Part shown: one piece after another, positions 52,463 to 60,795 of the stretch
Layout of the letters: each line of letters begins with the position of its first letter
Numbering within the stretch: position 1 is the first letter of the stretch
Source: Phycisphaerae bacterium
Lineage (GTDB): Bacteria > Planctomycetota > Phycisphaerae > UBA1845 > PWPN01
Assembly (NCBI GenBank): GCA_030372985.1
Contig: JAUCQB010000180.1
Coordinates: forward strand, 62,001 to 126,000
DNA length: 64,000 nt
Direction: 5' to 3'
The notes under the pieces: generated by a model
What the model saw: the letters and a program-made list of their open reading frames with translations, nothing else
What the model was told of the DNA's origin: nothing
Database searches by the model: none
Program-made: the position numbers and the translations under genes

Positions 52463-52480
52463 GTGAATCTGAAATCTCAG
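52463..52480. repeat. Single copy of the AATCTGAAATCTCAG unit
   Basis: This short copy of the 48.7-kb repeat type lies exactly at the broken end of the duplicated esterase fragment. Confidence 0.4.
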
Positions 52481-52485
52481 CCTCC

Positions 52486-53068
52486 GCGGCCATGCGATAA
52501 GGACAGACGCGATCGTTCTGCGAATGGTAGAGGTAGTAGGCGCGCCCCTTGGCCCGGTCGAGCGATGGCAACTGATCGGGCTTGAACACCGACATGGCAC
52601 CGAATGAGCCGGTGACCGGTGAATTCTCGGCCAGTGAGACCGCATACGCCGCCGGTCCACCCGACGACCACGACAACGTGTAGATGTGCCGATCGTCGAG
52701 CTTGTGTTCTGCACGCACGTCTTTGATCACCGCTTCGACAGAATCCTCGGTCGCGAACTGCTGGCCGGGCACCTTGCTCATTCGCGTCGGCCAGACGATC
52801 TGCTGATCCGCCGTCCGCTTGAAAGCAACCGGCTGAGCCACGCTACACCCGGCCGGCAGCGCATTCTTGAAAATGCGGCAGACAAACGGATTGAAATTCG
52901 CCCCGCCTTTGCCACCGGGCAATACGACCACCAGCTTGTAGCCCGCTGCTGACACCCGATCATCAGCCCGCGGGCCGATCAGGAAATACCGCATCTTCTC
53001 ATTGGCGCCGGCGTTCAGATCGAGAACCGGCACGTCGACGATGTCATCCGGAACTGGCCGCGTCCGCG
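52486..53068 (-). pseudogene. Truncated duplicate of the esterase domain of the M56 fusion gene
   Basis: This stretch is a diverged copy of 53637-54219, offset by about 1151 bases, and its minus-strand frame translates to the same sequence with substitutions (EKMRYFLIGPRADDRVSAAG against EKMRYFLIGPRPDERVSAAG). The nucleophile region LSWSSGGPAAYA and the Asp region YHSQNDRVC are kept, but the copy breaks off before the catalytic His segment and has no start codon; the upstream frame runs antisense through tatA. I read it as the left arm of a partial tandem duplication. Confidence 0.75.
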
Positions 53069-53096: not shown

Positions 53097-53378
53097 ATGA
53101 CGGCACACGTGATAGCCTTCTTCTTCAACCTGCCCGGCGGGCCGAAGTGGATCATCATCGGGGTGGTCGGCCTCCTGATCTTCGGCAAGAAGCTGCCCGA
53201 GGTCGCCCGTTCGCTCGGCAAGAACGTGGTCGAATTCAAGAAGAGGCTCAAGGCCGTCGAGGAGGAGATCAACAATTCCGGGAGCGAGTCCGACAAGTCC
53301 TCGAACCAGTTGCCCCCCACCAGCAACCCCTACAGTTCGGAAGCCGTGGCCGAGCCGCCGCCAAACGAAAGCCACTGA
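53097..53378 (+). CDS. tatA: Twin-arginine translocase subunit TatA/E
   Basis: The 93-residue protein has the TatA pattern: one N-terminal membrane helix (PKWIIIGVVGLLIFG), the conserved hinge FGKKLPEVARSLGKNVVEFKK beginning near residue 28, an amphipathic helix, and a polar tail. TatA oligomers form the pore for folded Tat substrates; three such substrates are encoded in this window (at 1447, 28953 and 47462). It lies between the truncated and intact copies of an esterase domain, on the opposite strand. No tatB or tatC is nearby. Confidence 0.93.
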   Translation: MTAHVIAFFFNLPGGPKWIIIGVVGLLIFGKKLPEVARSLGKNVVEFKKRLKAVEEEINNSGSESDKSSNQLPPTSNPYSSEAVAEPPPNESH

Positions 53379-53440: not shown

Positions 53441-56400
53441 TCACGGACTTGGCTGCGAGAATAGTGTTTTACGACCCCCACCCGCAGATGGGGCCTGGTC
53501 GCCGTGCTGTCTCTCAAGCCATTCAATACCGGTCCGAATTGATCCGAAGATGTCACCGCCCTTCCAGCCGTGTCCGCCTGGATAGGTCTTGAGCGTGACG
53601 GCCGCCACTTTTTCTTTGAGCATGTTCTCCGCCTGCTGGGCCATCCGGTACGAACAAACGCGATCATCCGGCGAATGGTAGATGTAGTACGCGTGCCCCT
53701 TGGCCCGGTCCAGCGACGGCAGTTGATCCGGCCTGAACACCGACATGGCGACAAACGAGCCGGTCACCGGTGAATTCTCGGCCAGTGAGATCGCGTACGC
53801 CGCCGGTCCGCCCGAAGACCACGACAAGGTGAAGACGCACCGATCATCAACCTTGTGTTTTGACCGCACATCCTTGATCACGGCCTCGACGAAGTCTTCG
53901 GTCGCGAACTGCTGACCGGGCACCTTGTTCATCCGCGTCGGCCAGACGATCTGCTGATCGGGCGTCCATCTGAAAGCAACCGGCTGGGCCACGATGTACC
54001 CGGCCGGCAGCGCGTTCTTGAAGATTCGGCAGACGAACGGATTGAAATGAGCCCTGCCGTCGCCCCCGGGCAAAACAATCAGCAGCTTGTACCCCGCCGC
54101 TGACACCCGCTCATCAGGGCGCGGGCCGATCAGGAAGTACCTCATCTTCTCATTGCCGCCGGCGGTCAGATCGAGAACCGGCATGTCGGCGATGTCATCC
54201 GGAACTGGCCGTGTTGCGGACGACCTGTCAGGCTCACCGCTGGCAGATTGCGCATCTTGAATCCTCGCGAGTGCCTGCCTGGCCGCGTCACGAAGGCGCG
54301 GCTGGGGGTCATCCAGAAATTGAGTCAGCTTCGCCACCGCGGGTAGCGCGGCCGAGCTGATCTGGCCGAGAGCCCGTATGGCGGATTCGCGAGGATAGAT
54401 GTCTTTCTCAGCAAGCAGTCGGATCAGCCCGGCTACGTCAGGTTCGGAGACGATCAGGCGATACGAATCCACGTCGGCAAGCGAGACGTCGCGGAAATAC
54501 AGTTCCGCCTTGCCCGAGCGATTGGGCGGATCGTCTCCGCCGGCAATGAAGCTCGCGAACACCTGCTTGGGCATCTCGCGGTTCCGCAACTCAAGCACCC
54601 GCTGTGTGCCGAGGACCGCTTTGTTCTTGTCGAACAGAGTCATCTCGAACAGCGCACCGCCGGCAGTCTTGCCGTCGCGAAACTGGAAGGCCACGTCCAC
54701 CCGCGGATAGTTGTCGCGGCTCATGAACTCGATCTCGCGGATATCGAGCATCGGGGATCTCACGCTCGCGGGCTTGCTCGTCCGAAGCTTCGGGTCCTCC
54801 GGATCAAACACGTAGACCGGCCCTTCGATACCGAACTTCCTGCCCGCCCCGTCGATCACCTGCCCTTTTGCCCACAACCCCTCCAACACAACTCGCGAAC
54901 CCCCCGCCGGCCGCGTCGTGCCGGGACCCTCACCGCCGGCTCCGGCAATCTCGATCTCCACCGGATTGCTCACCACCCGCACCGGCTGGCCGACATCGGG
55001 CCCGCCCGGTTGAGCGATAAACGCCACACGAATCGTATGACGGCCGGGACGCAGATCCAGCTTGGCAGCGCCGTCATCCTTCGCCTGCCACTGGGGCCCC
55101 AGAAAGATGCTGATCCCGCCGAATTCACCACCGGGCGGGAAGTGAGAGCTCCTGACGTCGATCTCGTCTGCCCAGCGATACCAGCGTCCATCCACCTGCA
55201 GCTCGCACAATTCCTGCGATCGGGCGACCGAGAGCTCACGATTGCCGCGATTTCGGATGGCAGTGGCCAATTCGGGCGATTGTCCGATCCGCAGGTGAGT
55301 CGGTCCAGCCCACAGCCGACACTGCAGGCCCTCAACCGCCTCGCCCCAGTCTCGCCTCGGCGAGTCCTCGCCGGGCTGCACCTCGACCGTGCCGACATCG
55401 AGCGCCGCCTCGTCTGCGTCGCCGACCCCGGCTGTGAGATCGAAGCCGCTGGTGATCCAACCGAGCACCTTGTCTTTCTTTCCCTCCTGTCCGGACGGAT
55501 CAACGACGCGAACCTGCATGAAGTACCTGGCCGGCGGCAGATCTCGGATTTCGAACGATCCATCCTCCGCCGGGCTGACATCTCCGGAATAGGCTTTGCC
55601 CTCGTCGGATCTAAGAAACTCCTGATAGGCGTTGAACACAGGATCGACGCCGCTGCTATCCACGTGGAAGCCCGTCGCTTCGAGGAAATAGCGTATCCGC
55701 GTGTTCTTCGGGCTTATCTGGAAGTCTGCGTCCACGGCCGCGAGCAAGCGACCGACCACCCGCCTCATTCCGCCGACCGTCACCCGTGTGGTCTGGCCCG
55801 GCCCGATCTCAAATCGCGTTTCGCCGCCGCTCAGGTGCACTTCGCTGTCTGCCTGGCGACGAACCCACTCCCGCTTGAGCCAGCATTCGCCGGGCGGCAC
55901 TCTCTCGATGATGAATCGGCCTTGGGAATCCGGGTTGATGTTGTATCGAAGATTGATATTGGCGTTCTCCTGCTGCCAACCGCGTTCGCCGAGGCCATCC
56001 CGGCCGTAGGTTCGGTACGTGACAAGGTGGTCCACCGGCCGGCTCGTTCTGAACTTGTCCAGCCCCAGGACCATCCCTTCCACCCTGCTCCACGGCCTCA
56101 GAGTGATCGGAGACTCGGTCAGCCGGGTAAGGGGCAACTCGACGTAGCCTTCGTCGTGCAGTATGGCGACGGCAAAGCAGGCAGGTCTCGCTGGAAAGTT
56201 GAACTGCCCGTCGGCGTCCGTGACGGCCAATATGCCGTTGGGTTTGCTTTCAGTGCGGTTGTGGACCTCACGCTCGAACCGCCCGTCCACAAACCGGGCC
56301 TCGTGCTCCGCCAGCAGCAATACCACTTGCGCTCCAACGGCCGGCTTGCCGTCGGGCAGAAACACGGTCCCCTGCAAGCCTGCCGGGGGTGGCCGCGTTG

Positions 56401-59400
56401 TGGCCCCCGCCTGATCATCCACGCGTTCCAGCCACACCACATACCGCAGCGGCTGAGCGGCTTCCTCCAGGACTTCCGCGCTGCCCAGGTCAAACCGAAG
56501 CGTCTCCTCGCTCACGGATGGCACACGCTCGATGACTCCCGCGCTCTCGATAACCTGCTCCGCATGAGCGAGCACGCGATTCTCGGGCCCCGGGATCTCG
56601 ACCCGCACCCTGTATTTCGCCTTGGGCCAGCTCAGCAAGCTTACGCGAACGCTGGCGCCAAAGCGGTCCTTGCTCCGATCGAATCGGATCCACTTCGCCT
56701 CAATCGCGTTCGAGTATTCGATCGCGTTCAACGCCAGACGCAACGGCAACTCTTCATCAAATGCGATCGGATTGCCCTGGTTGGTGGACACCGATTCAAC
56801 GCCGATCCGAAATCCGACCGCCTTCGCTGGGTCGGCCGCACCGCTAAACCGGAACTGAATCTCTGCAGGTTCCTCGAAGGGAACTCTCGCGATCGCCCCC
56901 GAGGTGACATGCGTGGCCGTGGCCTGAGCCAGCACTTTCCCCGCCGCATCCAGCACGTCAATGGCGAACAGCCATTTCGTCTGTGGCCACGATGAGAAGC
57001 GAACATCGAGGACAGCTTGCAGCCGCTTCTCGACGACCCTGAACTGCACAACTGAGTGTCTGGGGAATCCGCCCGGCCCCTCGTCGCCCTTCTTCAAAGC
57101 AATGACAATGGGGATATCGAGTTCAAACCGCCCTTCGGTCTGATTTGCCGCCTCGTCGGCAGGCTTGGCCGCCGGACCGGCCGTTACCGCTTCATCCCAT
57201 TTGTCCAGGGCCAGCAGGTAGCGAATCCTCTGCTGACGATCAGCCGGTCTCCAGCCCGACTTCTCCAGTCCCCTGGCCGCGAAGTTCCTGGCGTACTCGT
57301 CCTCGTCTTGCAGTGCCCCGATAAGGACAGTCGTTGCCTTGTCTCCACCAATCTCGCCCAGCGCCCGGAGCGCATCCTTGAAGGATTCGTACTTCCTGTC
57401 GTGGTACAGTTCGATCAACGGTCCAACCGCCCGCGCGTCGCCGATCTCGCCCAGCGCCCCGGCCGCCGCTCTGCGCACGCCAACATCCTCGTCCTTCAGG
57501 GCTGCGATCAACGCCTCGACTGCCGAGGGCTCCCGCAGTCCGCCAAGGGTCTCCGCGGCCGTCTCCCGCACCCTCGGGTCTGAGTCTAGCCAGGCCAGGC
57601 GTTGGATGGCTTCCTGGGCTTCCGGTCGCGCAGTCCCGTAGGGCAGGTCGCCAGACCTGCCGCTGACGTGCCCGCCCGGAGCAGGCCGTGTGTCAGGCCG
57701 AGCGGCGGGCACGGTGCTCGGTGCCGCCGGCGAGCCGCCGTATCGCAGCCCCTGCGACTCGATCATGCGACGTGTGTCCGGCTCCCAGATGCGGAGCTTG
57801 CCTTCGTGCGTGTCGATCAGATGGCTTGCGCTGCCCCAGCCGCGGAATCTCAGCTTGCCCTTGACAAACGACGGACGCGTCGCGTCCAAAAGCGGCGAGG
57901 CCGCGTCGTCTGACAAGGGCTCGCCGTCCACAACGTCGATCAAGACAGGCTCGCGAGCAGAAGCCCCGGAGTCGCCCGGCGCGGGCCGATCAATTCTGAC
58001 AACCTTGTCGACCAACTCGTTTTGCTTTGCGCCGTCCGACCAAGCGGCTCGCGCCTTTCCGTCCACCACGTCAAGGTCCAGCGTCTTGGTGCCCAGCCGG
58101 AACCGGAGTCGGCTCTCATGCGCGCCGATCTCCAGGCCGGGCGTCGGGTCAAATGCCCAGGCCAGGCTGTCCGGCAATCGGACCGCCTCCGCCGCTGCCG
58201 TGCGTCGTTCAGCGGCGTCGTTCGGCAGCTTCACGGTCAGCTCGCGCCAGCCCGTCTTCAGCGCGCCCTGCCAGTCCGTCGGCTGCGGGACACTGACCGT
58301 GCCATCCGGGCGTTCCCATCTCACATCGGGGAACGGAAGCAGGTACCGAATCGCATAGCGCCCCGGTTTGCCCTTCAGGATGACGCCGGTCTGCCGCCAG
58401 GGCGACTCCACCTCCTGCCACTCCTGGACGATGCCCAAACCGGTGCTTTCCAGCGTCACGTCCTGGCCGGGCTTCAGCTCGTGCCGGACGATTCTCGGCC
58501 ATCCGCTGTACCACTTGGCGGGCACCTCCCGTATCGTCCCGCCGTCGTCGCGGACCTCCGCACGATCCTGTCGCTGTGTGGCGGTGGCGATTGGGATGGT
58601 GCGGTCGCTAACGTTTCGCAGGCGGAACCGCACGTCGATCTTCTCGCCGTACGCATACGCCTCCTTAGCCGGCACCAGTTCCACCGCTGCCTGTAGTCCG
58701 TCGACCGCCTCGCCCCAAGCGGGAGCATCCGCCGGTTGGGTCGGCGGCGGTGTCGCGGCCGGTGCGGCCGGCGCCTCCATCAGCGGCCGCAGCAGTTCGG
58801 TCTTGGGGACCGCGTCGATTCGCTGCCAGAGCTTGGCGATGCCTTGTGCCCTGCCGCTCGTCTGGAGTGTTCTCCCATCCGGAAGGAGCAGCAGCTTCGC
58901 CTTGAGGTTAGCGTACTCGTCAAGTTCGATCGTGCCGTCGGTGTAACGCGTCTCATCGCGATGGCCGTTGCTGTAGAGCACCACCACCCGGCCGTCGGGG
59001 AAAACTGCCATCTGCTCGTCGTCGCCCATCGGGTTCTCGAAGAACCACGTGCCGACCATCCCCGCCGGCATGGCATCGACAGCCCGGTCGTATGTTCGTG
59101 ACGACGTCAGGCGAATACAGGCCACGACGGCCAGCATCAGGAACACGCAAAGCCCAAAAACCGCCGGCCGCAACAGACGTACCGGCTCGCCGGTACTGCC
59201 CGAAACCAGGCGCAGGATTCGCAGCCGAAGCTGAGACGGGCGATCCGCGGCTCCCAGCGCGACCGCCGCCGCAGCCATGTAGGGCGGGCTCTGCCCGCCT
59301 GTGCTCAACTCTGCCATGCGCACCAGCGACTCGGCGTAGGCGAACCGCTGTCCGCCGACGGCCAGTACCAGATCATCGCAGCAGTGCTCGCGCTCGATGC

Positions 59401-60235
59401 GAATCCGCCGCGAGACAAACCACACCGCCGGGTGGAAAAACAGCACCGCCTCGATCAGCCGCTGGAGGATGTTGACTAGGTAATCGTACCGCCGGATGTG
59501 GGCCAGCTCGTGGGCCAGAAGAACCTCGATCTGCTCGGTCGTCAGCCCACTGGCGGCGGACAACGGCAGCAGGATCATCGGTCGCAGCACGCCGACGACA
59601 GTCGGCACGGCCACGTCGCGGCAGAAGGCGATCGCGGGCGTGAACCGCAGGCCCAGGGCCCGGGCCTGACGCGCAAATGCCGCCAGAATGGCCGAGTCGT
59701 CCACCGGCTCCGACCGCCGCCGCAGCCGTTGGCCGCCGCACAGCGCCACAAGCAGACGAGCGAGCATCAGCGACGTTCCGCCGAGGTAGCACCCGACCAA
59801 GTACGGGGCGTAGCGCCACCAGTCGATCGCCTCAGCGGCAGGTTCGGGCGGAACGTTCAGAGAGACTGTCTCGGCGGAGGGAGAAACCACCGGTTCGGAC
59901 GGGTAGGGCGGGCTTTGCCCGCCGAGAAACGCTGAAGGCATCTCGGGGCGCATCACTGTGTCATCCGAACGCACGTGGGGCGGGCCTTGCCCGGCGCCGG
60001 ACATCGCGGGCGTCTCCGGCGATCTCAGGGCCACGAAAGTCACGGGCGGGCAAACCGCCATGACCAGCAATGCGGCCGCAAAGACCGCATACCGGGCCCC
60101 CGCCGAGGCTCGGCCGAGGAGCAGGCTTGCGAAGATCACCAGCAGATAGACTGCCGCCCCCTGCCAGAGAAAGTGGCCCATGGTCGCGGCCAGCCGCACA
60201 CACAGCGAGGCATCGGGCAGTTGCAGCATGTTCAT
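53441..60235 (-). CDS. Giant fusion: BlaR1-type M56 peptidase, HEAT repeats, regulatory-like beta domains and C-terminal esterase
   Basis: The 2264-residue protein starts with four or so membrane helices and an M56 peptidase (about 1-370) with the zinc motif HELAH at 242-246 and the downstream EREHCCDD segment. A lipocalin-like stretch (about 395-480) and planctomycete-type EAVDGLQ/EAVEGLQ modules follow, then HEAT repeats (about 870-1010, ALKDEDVGVRRAAAGALGEI), beta domains including a carboxypeptidase-regulatory one (about 1280-1400), a second EAVEGLQ module, more HEAT repeats (about 1930-1990) and an alpha/beta-hydrolase-like esterase (about 2007-2255) with SWSSGG, HSPDDRV and GGHGWKGG as the probable triad. 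BlaR1 itself has a penicillin-binding sensor instead. It overlaps the blaI-like stop by four bases. Confidence 0.85.
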   Translation of the reverse strand: MNMLQLPDASLCVRLAATMGHFLWQGAAVYLLVIFASLLLGRASAGARYAVFAAALLVMAVCPPVTFVALRSPETPAMSGAGQGPPHVRSDDTVMRPEMPSAFLGGQSPPYPSEPVVSPSAETVSLNVPPEPAAEAIDWWRYAPYLVGCYLGGTSLMLARLLVALCGGQRLRRRSEPVDDSAILAAFARQARALGLRFTPAIAFCRDVAVPTVVGVLRPMILLPLSAASGLTTEQIEVLLAHELAHIRRYDYLVNILQRLIEAVLFFHPAVWFVSRRIRIEREHCCDDLVLAVGGQRFAYAESLVRMAELSTGGQSPPYMAAAAVALGAADRPSQLRLRILRLVSGSTGEPVRLLRPAVFGLCVFLMLAVVACIRLTSSRTYDRAVDAMPAGMVGTWFFENPMGDDEQMAVFPDGRVVVLYSNGHRDETRYTDGTIELDEYANLKAKLLLLPDGRTLQTSGRAQGIAKLWQRIDAVPKTELLRPLMEAPAAPAATPPPTQPADAPAWGEAVDGLQAAVELVPAKEAYAYGEKIDVRFRLRNVSDRTIPIATATQRQDRAEVRDDGGTIREVPAKWYSGWPRIVRHELKPGQDVTLESTGLGIVQEWQEVESPWRQTGVILKGKPGRYAIRYLLPFPDVRWERPDGTVSVPQPTDWQGALKTGWRELTVKLPNDAAERRTAAAEAVRLPDSLAWAFDPTPGLEIGAHESRLRFRLGTKTLDLDVVDGKARAAWSDGAKQNELVDKVVRIDRPAPGDSGASAREPVLIDVVDGEPLSDDAASPLLDATRPSFVKGKLRFRGWGSASHLIDTHEGKLRIWEPDTRRMIESQGLRYGGSPAAPSTVPAARPDTRPAPGGHVSGRSGDLPYGTARPEAQEAIQRLAWLDSDPRVRETAAETLGGLREPSAVEALIAALKDEDVGVRRAAAGALGEIGDARAVGPLIELYHDRKYESFKDALRALGEIGGDKATTVLIGALQDEDEYARNFAARGLEKSGWRPADRQQRIRYLLALDKWDEAVTAGPAAKPADEAANQTEGRFELDIPIVIALKKGDEGPGGFPRHSVVQFRVVEKRLQAVLDVRFSSWPQTKWLFAIDVLDAAGKVLAQATATHVTSGAIARVPFEEPAEIQFRFSGAADPAKAVGFRIGVESVSTNQGNPIAFDEELPLRLALNAIEYSNAIEAKWIRFDRSKDRFGASVRVSLLSWPKAKYRVRVEIPGPENRVLAHAEQVIESAGVIERVPSVSEETLRFDLGSAEVLEEAAQPLRYVVWLERVDDQAGATTRPPPAGLQGTVFLPDGKPAVGAQVVLLLAEHEARFVDGRFEREVHNRTESKPNGILAVTDADGQFNFPARPACFAVAILHDEGYVELPLTRLTESPITLRPWSRVEGMVLGLDKFRTSRPVDHLVTYRTYGRDGLGERGWQQENANINLRYNINPDSQGRFIIERVPPGECWLKREWVRRQADSEVHLSGGETRFEIGPGQTTRVTVGGMRRVVGRLLAAVDADFQISPKNTRIRYFLEATGFHVDSSGVDPVFNAYQEFLRSDEGKAYSGDVSPAEDGSFEIRDLPPARYFMQVRVVDPSGQEGKKDKVLGWITSGFDLTAGVGDADEAALDVGTVEVQPGEDSPRRDWGEAVEGLQCRLWAGPTHLRIGQSPELATAIRNRGNRELSVARSQELCELQVDGRWYRWADEIDVRSSHFPPGGEFGGISIFLGPQWQAKDDGAAKLDLRPGRHTIRVAFIAQPGGPDVGQPVRVVSNPVEIEIAGAGGEGPGTTRPAGGSRVVLEGLWAKGQVIDGAGRKFGIEGPVYVFDPEDPKLRTSKPASVRSPMLDIREIEFMSRDNYPRVDVAFQFRDGKTAGGALFEMTLFDKNKAVLGTQRVLELRNREMPKQVFASFIAGGDDPPNRSGKAELYFRDVSLADVDSYRLIVSEPDVAGLIRLLAEKDIYPRESAIRALGQISSAALPAVAKLTQFLDDPQPRLRDAARQALARIQDAQSASGEPDRSSATRPVPDDIADMPVLDLTAGGNEKMRYFLIGPRPDERVSAAGYKLLIVLPGGDGRAHFNPFVCRIFKNALPAGYIVAQPVAFRWTPDQQIVWPTRMNKVPGQQFATEDFVEAVIKDVRSKHKVDDRCVFTLSWSSGGPAAYAISLAENSPVTGSFVAMSVFRPDQLPSLDRAKGHAYYIYHSPDDRVCSYRMAQQAENMLKEKVAAVTLKTYPGGHGWKGGDIFGSIRTGIEWLERQHGDQAPSAGGGRKTLFSQPSP
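57642..57661. repeat. Palindrome inside the M56 fusion gene (GGCAGGTC arms)
   Basis: GGCAGGTC and GACCTGCC are perfect 8-base arms with a 4-base loop, preceded by GTA like the other copies. In frame it encodes RSGDLPYG, just before the first HEAT block. Confidence 0.5.
59279..59299. repeat. GGCGGGC palindrome inside the M56 fusion gene
   Basis: GGCGGGC (59283-59289), TCT, GCCCGCC (59293-59299), preceded by GTA. On the coding strand it yields GGQSPPY, inserted between conserved segments of the peptidase part. Confidence 0.7.
59903..59923. repeat. GGCGGGC palindrome inside the M56 fusion gene
   Basis: GGCGGGC (59907-59913), TTT, GCCCGCC (59917-59923), again preceded by TA. It encodes a second GGQSPPY in the linker before the third membrane segment. 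Confidence 0.7.
59977..59995. repeat. Imperfect GGCGGGC palindrome inside the M56 fusion gene
   Basis: GGGCGGGCCTTGCCCGGC is a near copy with one arm altered, 55 bases from the perfect copy at 59907; it encodes part of GAGQGPP. Confidence 0.45.
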
Positions 60236-60624
60236 GGCACCTGTCCCCCGGTTCTGCGGTCGATCAATTCGCGGAGTTGCCGCAGCTCTTCCGCATCGAT
60301 GTCCTTGGTCTCCAGCAGGTTAACCATCAACGCCGCGGCCGATCCGTCGAACGCCCGGTCCACCAGGTCGTGGAGCATGCCGCGAGTGGTTGACTCGGCG
60401 GAGACGGCCGCCCGATAGACGTACCCGCCCTCGCCCTTCTTGCGTTTGACGTACCCCTTGCGGGCCATGATGGTCATGATGGTCATCACCGAGGTGTACG
60501 CCAGGTCGCGAAAACCCGTGAGTGCCTCGCGGACGTGCCGTACGTTCGACGGGCCGTCCCGCCAGAGGATCTTGAGAATCTCGAGTTCCAGCTCGGTGGG
60601 GTACCGGGAAGCCGATCGTGCCAT
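60232..60624 (-). CDS. BlaI/MecI-family transcriptional repressor
   Basis: The 130-residue protein starts behind GAGGAGG and has the winged-helix DNA-binding domain of the family (LTEL-like start ELEILKILWRDGPSNVRHVR, then AYTSVMTIMTIMARKGYV) and a C-terminal helical dimerisation half (DAEELRQLRELIDRR). BlaI represses its own operon and is cleaved when the partner M56 peptidase senses a signal. Its stop overlaps the start of the fusion gene by four bases, the usual blaI-blaR1 order. No beta-lactamase gene is adjacent, so the signal may differ. Confidence 0.92.
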   Translation of the reverse strand: MARSASRYPTELELEILKILWRDGPSNVRHVREALTGFRDLAYTSVMTIMTIMARKGYVKRKKGEGGYVYRAAVSAESTTRGMLHDLVDRAFDGSAAALMVNLLETKDIDAEELRQLRELIDRRTGGQVP

Positions 60625-60728: not shown

Positions 60729-60740
60729 CTAATTCATTAG
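60729..60740 (-). promoter_or_regulatory. Operator-like dyad at the transcription start of the BlaI operon
   Basis: CTAATTCATTAG is a palindrome of two CTAAT/ATTAG halves. It begins five bases after the predicted -10 (60750-60745), so a bound repressor would cover the start site. Confidence 0.65.
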
Positions 60741-60783: not shown

Positions 60784-60795
60784 TTAATAATTTAG
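60784..60795 (-). promoter_or_regulatory. Second operator-like dyad upstream of the BlaI promoter
   Basis: CTAAATTATTAA on the minus strand has the same half-site spacing as the first dyad, with one departure in each half, and lies just upstream of the -35. Paired sites are common for this repressor family. Confidence 0.5.

Follow-up and report, generated by a model that had tools for sequence, protein, structure and literature searches.

In receptors of the BlaR1/MecR1 type the canonical sensor is itself a serine enzyme fold, resembling a class-D beta-lactamase. The signal in BlaR1 is the acylation of an extracellular active-site serine in the sensor, and this drives the M56 domain to cut the repressor BlaI at Asn101-Phe102; the zinc-motif residues and Arg294 of BlaR1 have been described as catalytic or structural (PMC9834060). 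Slow deacylation is thought to matter in BlaR1, the sensor of which is a slow-turnover relative of beta-lactamase (PMC7593790). Because the BlaR1 sensor has a serine enzyme fold, an enzyme-type domain on a receptor of this class has precedent, and what differs in the locus described here is the kind of enzyme. Our searches of the open literature gave no paper on M56-esterase fusions, and the inducers of M56/BlaI systems outside beta-lactam resistance appear to be largely unstudied.

The window, i.e. the whole stretch of DNA that was analysed, consists of 64,000 nt (positions 62,001-126,000 of contig JAUCQB010000180.1, forward strand) from Phycisphaerae bacterium GCA_030372985.1 (Planctomycetota; UBA1845; PWPN01). 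The receptor gene (53441..60235) is on the minus strand, as are all the receptor features given below, and runs from 60235 to 53441 as one uninterrupted open frame, 2264 codons long (2264 aa). An earlier note, in which no strand was given, had placed an M56 domain, HEAT repeats and an esterase in one protein at 53441-60235, and the open frame, Pfam matches and a fold model agree with both the content and the coordinates. An artefact of assembly or frame, joining an M56 gene to an adjacent esterase gene, would be in keeping with the metagenome-style assembly (272 contigs, 6.45 Mb) and with the presence, 1.15 kb away, of a partial esterase copy that is 85% identical. However, GC3 is 0.71-0.82 throughout the frame, including the HEAT/esterase junction, and codon-position GC is even along it, so that a frameshift, which the earlier note had named as a possible refutation, is not visible in the sequence. 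Additionally, the HEAT-esterase junction has homologues in L031 and L028, where homology reaches upstream of the esterase to residues 1976-1979, and independent M56-esterase receptors are present in the closed chromosome of strain ZRK32 and in the single-contig genome G310. On the sequence evidence, these further receptors confirm that the fusion is real and no assembly accident, and an artefact is highly improbable.

The M56 peptidase core (residues 129-316; 59288..59851) matches Pfam PF05569 with an E of 9.7e-31 and aligns with BlaR1 (8exs). In the alignment of residues 218-371 with this cryo-EM structure of S. aureus BlaR1, the zinc motif H242-E-L-A-H246 (59498..59512) falls on H201EXXH, the third zinc ligand motif E283-H-C-C-D287 (59375..59389) on E242XXXD246 and Arg339 on Arg294. 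The Phe of the BlaR1 autocleavage site has no evident counterpart in the window receptor. Hydropathy suggests four hydrophobic segments (about 20-47, 43-73, 146-167 and 351-381), the last of which (TM4, residues about 354-378; 59102..59176) precedes the extracytoplasmic part. The NCBIfam model blaR1_generic, which has a cut-off of 400, gives a score of 80.8 and aligns with residues 146-315 only. Because of its zinc motifs and the adjacent repressor gene, the receptor is, by its sequence, a member of the M56/BlaR1-type regulators. A penicillin-binding domain was searched for and is absent: at E<=1, Pfam detects no transpeptidase or beta-lactamase family anywhere along the protein. The receptor is therefore not a beta-lactam sensor in the strict meaning of the term. 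No beta-lactamase gene was recognised in its immediate neighbourhood.

The repressor gene (60232..60624, minus strand) encodes a BlaI/MecI-type protein of 130 aa (Penicillinase_R, Pfam E 1e-29), and its stop overlaps the start of the receptor gene (ATGA). Alignment to MecI/BlaI structures matches Asn102-Leu103 of the repressor to the BlaI scissile bond. There is an operator-like perfect palindrome, CTAATNNATTAG, before the repressor gene. This putative BlaI-type operator (CTAATGAATTAG, 60729..60740) is kept before blaI in relatives, and a degenerate operator-like dyad with 2 mismatches (CTAAATTATTAA, 60784..60795, minus strand) lies about 55 bp upstream of it. An equivalent dyad is found upstream of blaI in L074, L071 and L070, which are M56 operons from the same family and order, and a slightly different form precedes blaI of the ZRK32 (L136) and G310 (L168) receptors, the repressors of which are only about 26% identical to the window repressor. 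Paired dyads, 43-52 bp apart, are also present in L071, L070, L136 and L168. Dinucleotide shuffles of six blaI promoters match the quality of the dyad rarely or never (0 to 1%).

In a strict scan the perfect motif is present in a single copy in the 6.45-Mb genome, and the strict form GCTAATTTNTTAG is present twice in the closed ZRK32 chromosome, both times before its own blaI. This suggests that the main output may be more receptor-esterase; these receptors appear mainly to control their own operon, with the proviso that a strict scan would miss weak operators. Allowing one mismatch gives three further places in the 6.45-Mb genome, in or beside unrelated genes, and one extra site was seen in G310; all of these look like chance and were rejected as regulon members. 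Other planctomycete blaI-M56 operons (L077 and L082, and L073, L075 and L069) have other dyads, of the TCTAC..GTAGA and ACGAA..TTCGT types. The type of operator therefore seems to go with the subfamily of BlaI, and could be of use in mapping regulons.

The sensor side, which follows the membrane part, is a mosaic of about 1,880 residues made up of beta domains, HEAT repeats and a carboxypeptidase-regulatory-like unit, with the esterase at the end. Closest to the membrane is a small GTWFF beta domain (385-475; 58811..59083), read from the sequence and without a Pfam match; segments of the GxWY kind resembling it are also found in the ZRK32 and G310 receptors. A beta-sandwich-like unit with the motif WGEAVDGLQ (507-670; 58226..58717) likewise has no Pfam match, and its motif returns at 1629 in a second unit, WGEAVEGLQ, recognised by this motif (1629-1770; 54926..55351). 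Between the two are a HEAT and beta unit (868-1285; 56381..57634; HEAT_2, with repeats at about 878-990, Pfam E 1e-27), to which a unit in L069 is 52% identical, and the carboxypeptidase-regulatory-like unit (1287-1621; 55373..56377; a weaker Pfam match to CarboxypepD_reg at 1287-1350), with identities of 34% in L069 and 29% in L070. A second HEAT-like stretch (1933-1995; 54251..54439) lies directly N-terminal of the esterase.

In L069, an M56 protein of the same family, units 868-1285 and 1287-1621 are in reversed order. L071:5592-8900 (G016) encodes a 1102-residue protein of the same M56 subfamily, which has a C-terminal formylglycine-generating-enzyme-type (FGE-sulfatase) domain behind carboxypeptidase-regulatory-like repeats. 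As the shuffled units in L069 and the FGE-type domain on L071 show, M56 proteins here commonly have large, shuffled outer regions that occasionally include an enzyme-type domain, and the esterase is one unit of this kind. The earlier note had treated the sensor side of about 1900 residues as a surprise, a view that does not hold: very long mosaics are ordinary in the M56 proteins of this order, where relatives of 1,902, 2,034 and 1,102 residues have no esterase.

The alpha/beta-hydrolase (esterase) domain covers residues 2009-2243 (53507..54211), as judged from family alignments, a model and PDB matches; no Pfam or NCBIfam model scores above threshold on it. The AlphaFold2 model, made with a 56-row alignment, has a pLDDT of 95.1 and a pTM of 0.92 and gives 959 matches in the PDB at E<=0.001. 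The best are feruloyl esterases and carboxylesterases (TM about 0.6, 10-19% identity), and the esterase profile matches 1auo and 3doh. Feruloyl esterases, at a TM of about 0.6 and 12-15% identity, are level with many other esterases, and no family model is reached, so that membership of CE1 or of the feruloyl esterases is only a possibility. In the model the nucleophile Ser2140 (S-W-S-S-G; 53816..53818) comes directly after the fifth strand (127-137 in model numbering), and the acid Asp2191 (53663..53665) and His2222 (GGHGW; 53570..53572) follow the last two strands. All three residues are at near-invariant positions of the family. The fold and the Ser-Asp-His triad proposed in the earlier note are thus both present in the family alignment and the model, which indicate that the domain is an alpha/beta-hydrolase with a complete-looking triad.

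Homologues of the esterase, with up to 67% identity, were found in 56 GTDB loci, the hosts being nearly all Planctomycetota with a few Verrucomicrobiota and Armatimonadota. The family is present in 32 of the 392 sampled genomes of the phylum, and no match was found on plasmids. Most complete standalone relatives start with a signal-peptide-like hydrophobic stretch, suggesting an extracytoplasmic site of action for the esterase domain, like that of the BlaR1 sensor. Elsewhere the family is joined to CBM_4_9-like or other jelly-roll domains, HEAT repeats or FG-GAP repeats. The CBM-like and esterase protein L126:5148-6569 (= L033) has both the catalytic Ser and the His replaced and is an apparent pseudoenzyme, and in L132 and L158 the His motif is lost; such losses suggest that loss of the triad is tolerated outside receptors. 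Tandem esterase genes occur in L109/L242, where a HEAT-esterase gene overlaps one for a secreted esterase, and in L133/L081, where a full copy is beside a truncated one, suggesting that local duplication is recurrent in the family.

A rival reading is that an ordinary secreted-type esterase rides on the receptor as a tethered enzyme whose display is co-regulated, with the GTW, WGEAV, carboxypeptidase-regulatory-like or HEAT unit doing the sensing. In its favour, the family consists mostly of secreted enzymes, a few of them joined to a CBM_4_9-like or other jelly-roll domain; the operon itself is the one strict target of the operator; and esterase-free M56 relatives retain the other outer units. 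At least five extracytoplasmic units other than the esterase could be the sensor. Since standalone relatives share the triad, its conservation alone cannot separate a sensor from a tethered enzyme. On the other hand, a carrier of 2264 residues is costly for displaying an enzyme of 235, and the esterase is also joined to kinases and to two M56 lineages, where co-regulated display is unneeded. We therefore regard a tethered enzyme as unlikely, although it deserves to be taken seriously.

There are three M56-esterase receptors: that of the window, that of L136, which lies on CP066225, the closed chromosome of the cultured Planctomycetota strain ZRK32 (2173 aa, esterase at 417-653), and that of L161/L168 in G310, a genome of the same genus as ZRK32. 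Three Ser/Thr-kinase proteins, L083, L131 (= L028) and L072, have an esterase of the same family. None of the six receptor fusions has lost Ser, Asp or His. The survey of planctomycete M56 fusions proposed earlier thus found the esterase again in another M56 lineage, with the triad intact each time. Directly 3' of the ZRK32 receptor gene and on the same strand, L136:13602-15776 encodes a protein of 724 residues that is hydrophobic at its N-terminus, contains a laminin-G-like lectin domain and may be a partner or target.

In the M56 tree, the window receptor falls among M56 proteins from the family and order to which it belongs (100/99), and L070 and L071 in this group are complete and lack the esterase. 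The nearest M56 relative, L074 (58%), is on a contig that ends right after TM4. On the M56 domain a single clade of all M56-esterase receptors is rejected (p-AU 6.5e-6); the esterase alignment, which is short, does not reject it (p 0.25). Because the esterase tree is weak, we base the lineage claim on two things, the M56 tree and the differing place of the esterase in the protein. The simplest reading of these sequences is at least two M56-esterase fusion events; lateral replacement of the esterase is a possible alternative. The nearest relative of the window esterase is kinase-borne (67% identity), and this, together with fusions on at least two M56 lineages, suggests that association with receptors is repeated. 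Two further proteins with a carboxypeptidase-regulatory-like unit and an esterase (L093 and L154) reach contig ends, so that any receptor part would be outside the covered sequence, and a 1370-aa frame in G581 was rejected as a fusion because it is a high-GC shadow frame.

The partial esterase copy (589 bp; 52475..53063, minus strand) is downstream of the receptor gene in the same orientation, stops short of the His motif and has neither a signal peptide nor an in-frame start of its own. A tatA-like gene (TatA_B_E, E 5e-16; 53097-53378, plus strand) is located between the two esterase copies on the opposite strand. A broken copy so close by, the swapped units of L069 and the many unrelated architectures of the esterase family would all suit a by-product of module shuffling, in which receptors and secreted proteins of this order freely exchange outer units and the esterase, as a passenger, plays no part in signalling. 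Decay of the kind seen in L126, L132 or L158 is what one would expect of a passenger, but the triad is intact in 6/6 receptor fusions and dN/dS between the receptor esterase and the partial copy is about 0.13-0.19, suggesting that the receptor esterase has been under protein-level constraint. This makes a passenger improbable.

Given a complete output arm and a different serine-hydrolase fold outside, we judge it most likely that the esterase takes part in signalling, through an ester that it binds, is acylated by or turns over, and that the signal leads mainly to the production of further receptor; we put the probability of this at about one half. The system would be a two-gene switch of the BlaI/BlaR1 kind in which the penicillin-binding sensor is replaced by a mosaic region ending in a serine esterase. 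The esterase, predicted to lie outside the inner membrane, would meet an ester that probably belongs to debris of polysaccharides or other polymers. Its binding, acylation or hydrolysis would alter the state of the outer region. The change may then be relayed through TM4 to the M56 domain, which would cut BlaI and release the blaI-receptor operon, so that the main output would be more receptor-esterase. We infer that the esterase itself is the sensor. The two M56 lineages have the esterase at opposite ends of the outer region (C-terminal in the window receptor, next to TM4 in ZRK32), which speaks against a single, fixed route of allostery. A stricter version, in which the hydrolase replaces the penicillin-binding sensor in a self-contained circuit, signals by acylation or turnover and has its own operon as the only output, while the kinases recruited the esterase independently, is possible but doubtful.

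The earlier note had suggested sensing coupled to turnover, or capture of a product. Recurrent receptor fusions with an intact triad fit this suggestion, in which turnover, substrate and coupling are hypothetical. Binding-only domains usually lose the catalytic triad. A sensor that only captures, its fold binding a product or polymer end and signalling without turnover, overlaps our preferred reading; the CBM-like domains joined to some family members point to carbohydrate binding and the BlaR1 sensor is of slow turnover (PMC7593790), but no receptor-fused member has lost the triad, and we consider capture alone improbable.

If the esterase does contribute to the signal, serine-enzyme sensing in BlaR1-type receptors would not be bound to the penicillin-binding fold. 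The recurrent joining of the esterase to receptors suggests that these bacteria use the enzyme as a sensor part, and its presence on two unrelated M56 lineages and on kinases, always with an intact triad, makes esters a concrete candidate class of ligand. The two-gene system is small enough for testing, and a cultured organism, ZRK32, is at hand.

Finally, the locus can be set beside the systems that it most resembles. It shares with BlaR1/MecR1 and BlaI/MecI of S. aureus and B. licheniformis the M56 gluzincin motifs, the adjoining repressor with a scissile Asn and the promoter dyad. Hydropathy further predicts a membrane part of four segments, after which the C-terminal region would lie outside, as it does in those receptors. 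The locus differs from them in its operator-like sequence, CTAATNNATTAG, and in having, in place of a penicillin-binding/transpeptidase domain, a mosaic outer region ending in an alpha/beta-hydrolase. Formally the proposed signal would still be BlaR1-like, an acylated serine outside the membrane, by analogy and with another serine-hydrolase fold. The carboxylesterases and feruloyl esterases (CE1-like; 1auo, 3doh, 7xrt and 3wyd) share the fold and the order of Ser, Asp and His, but the window esterase is a separate family, joined to receptors, with 10-19% identity to them. In the kinase-esterase proteins L083, L131=L028 and L072, a kinase and membrane segment(s) are followed by the esterase with its triad intact, and in L131/L028 helical HEAT-like repeats precede it, as in the window; the output is a kinase rather than a protease and repressor. 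The receptors of ZRK32 (CP066225; L136, P0002) and G310 (P0003) are the most similar in plan, with an adjoining upstream blaI, the same type of dyad, an M56 domain, GxWY domains and an esterase of the same family with its triad intact. In these receptors, however, the esterase comes directly after TM4 (417-653 of 2173) rather than at the C-terminus, there are no HEAT repeats and the M56 domain belongs to a lineage other than that of the window.
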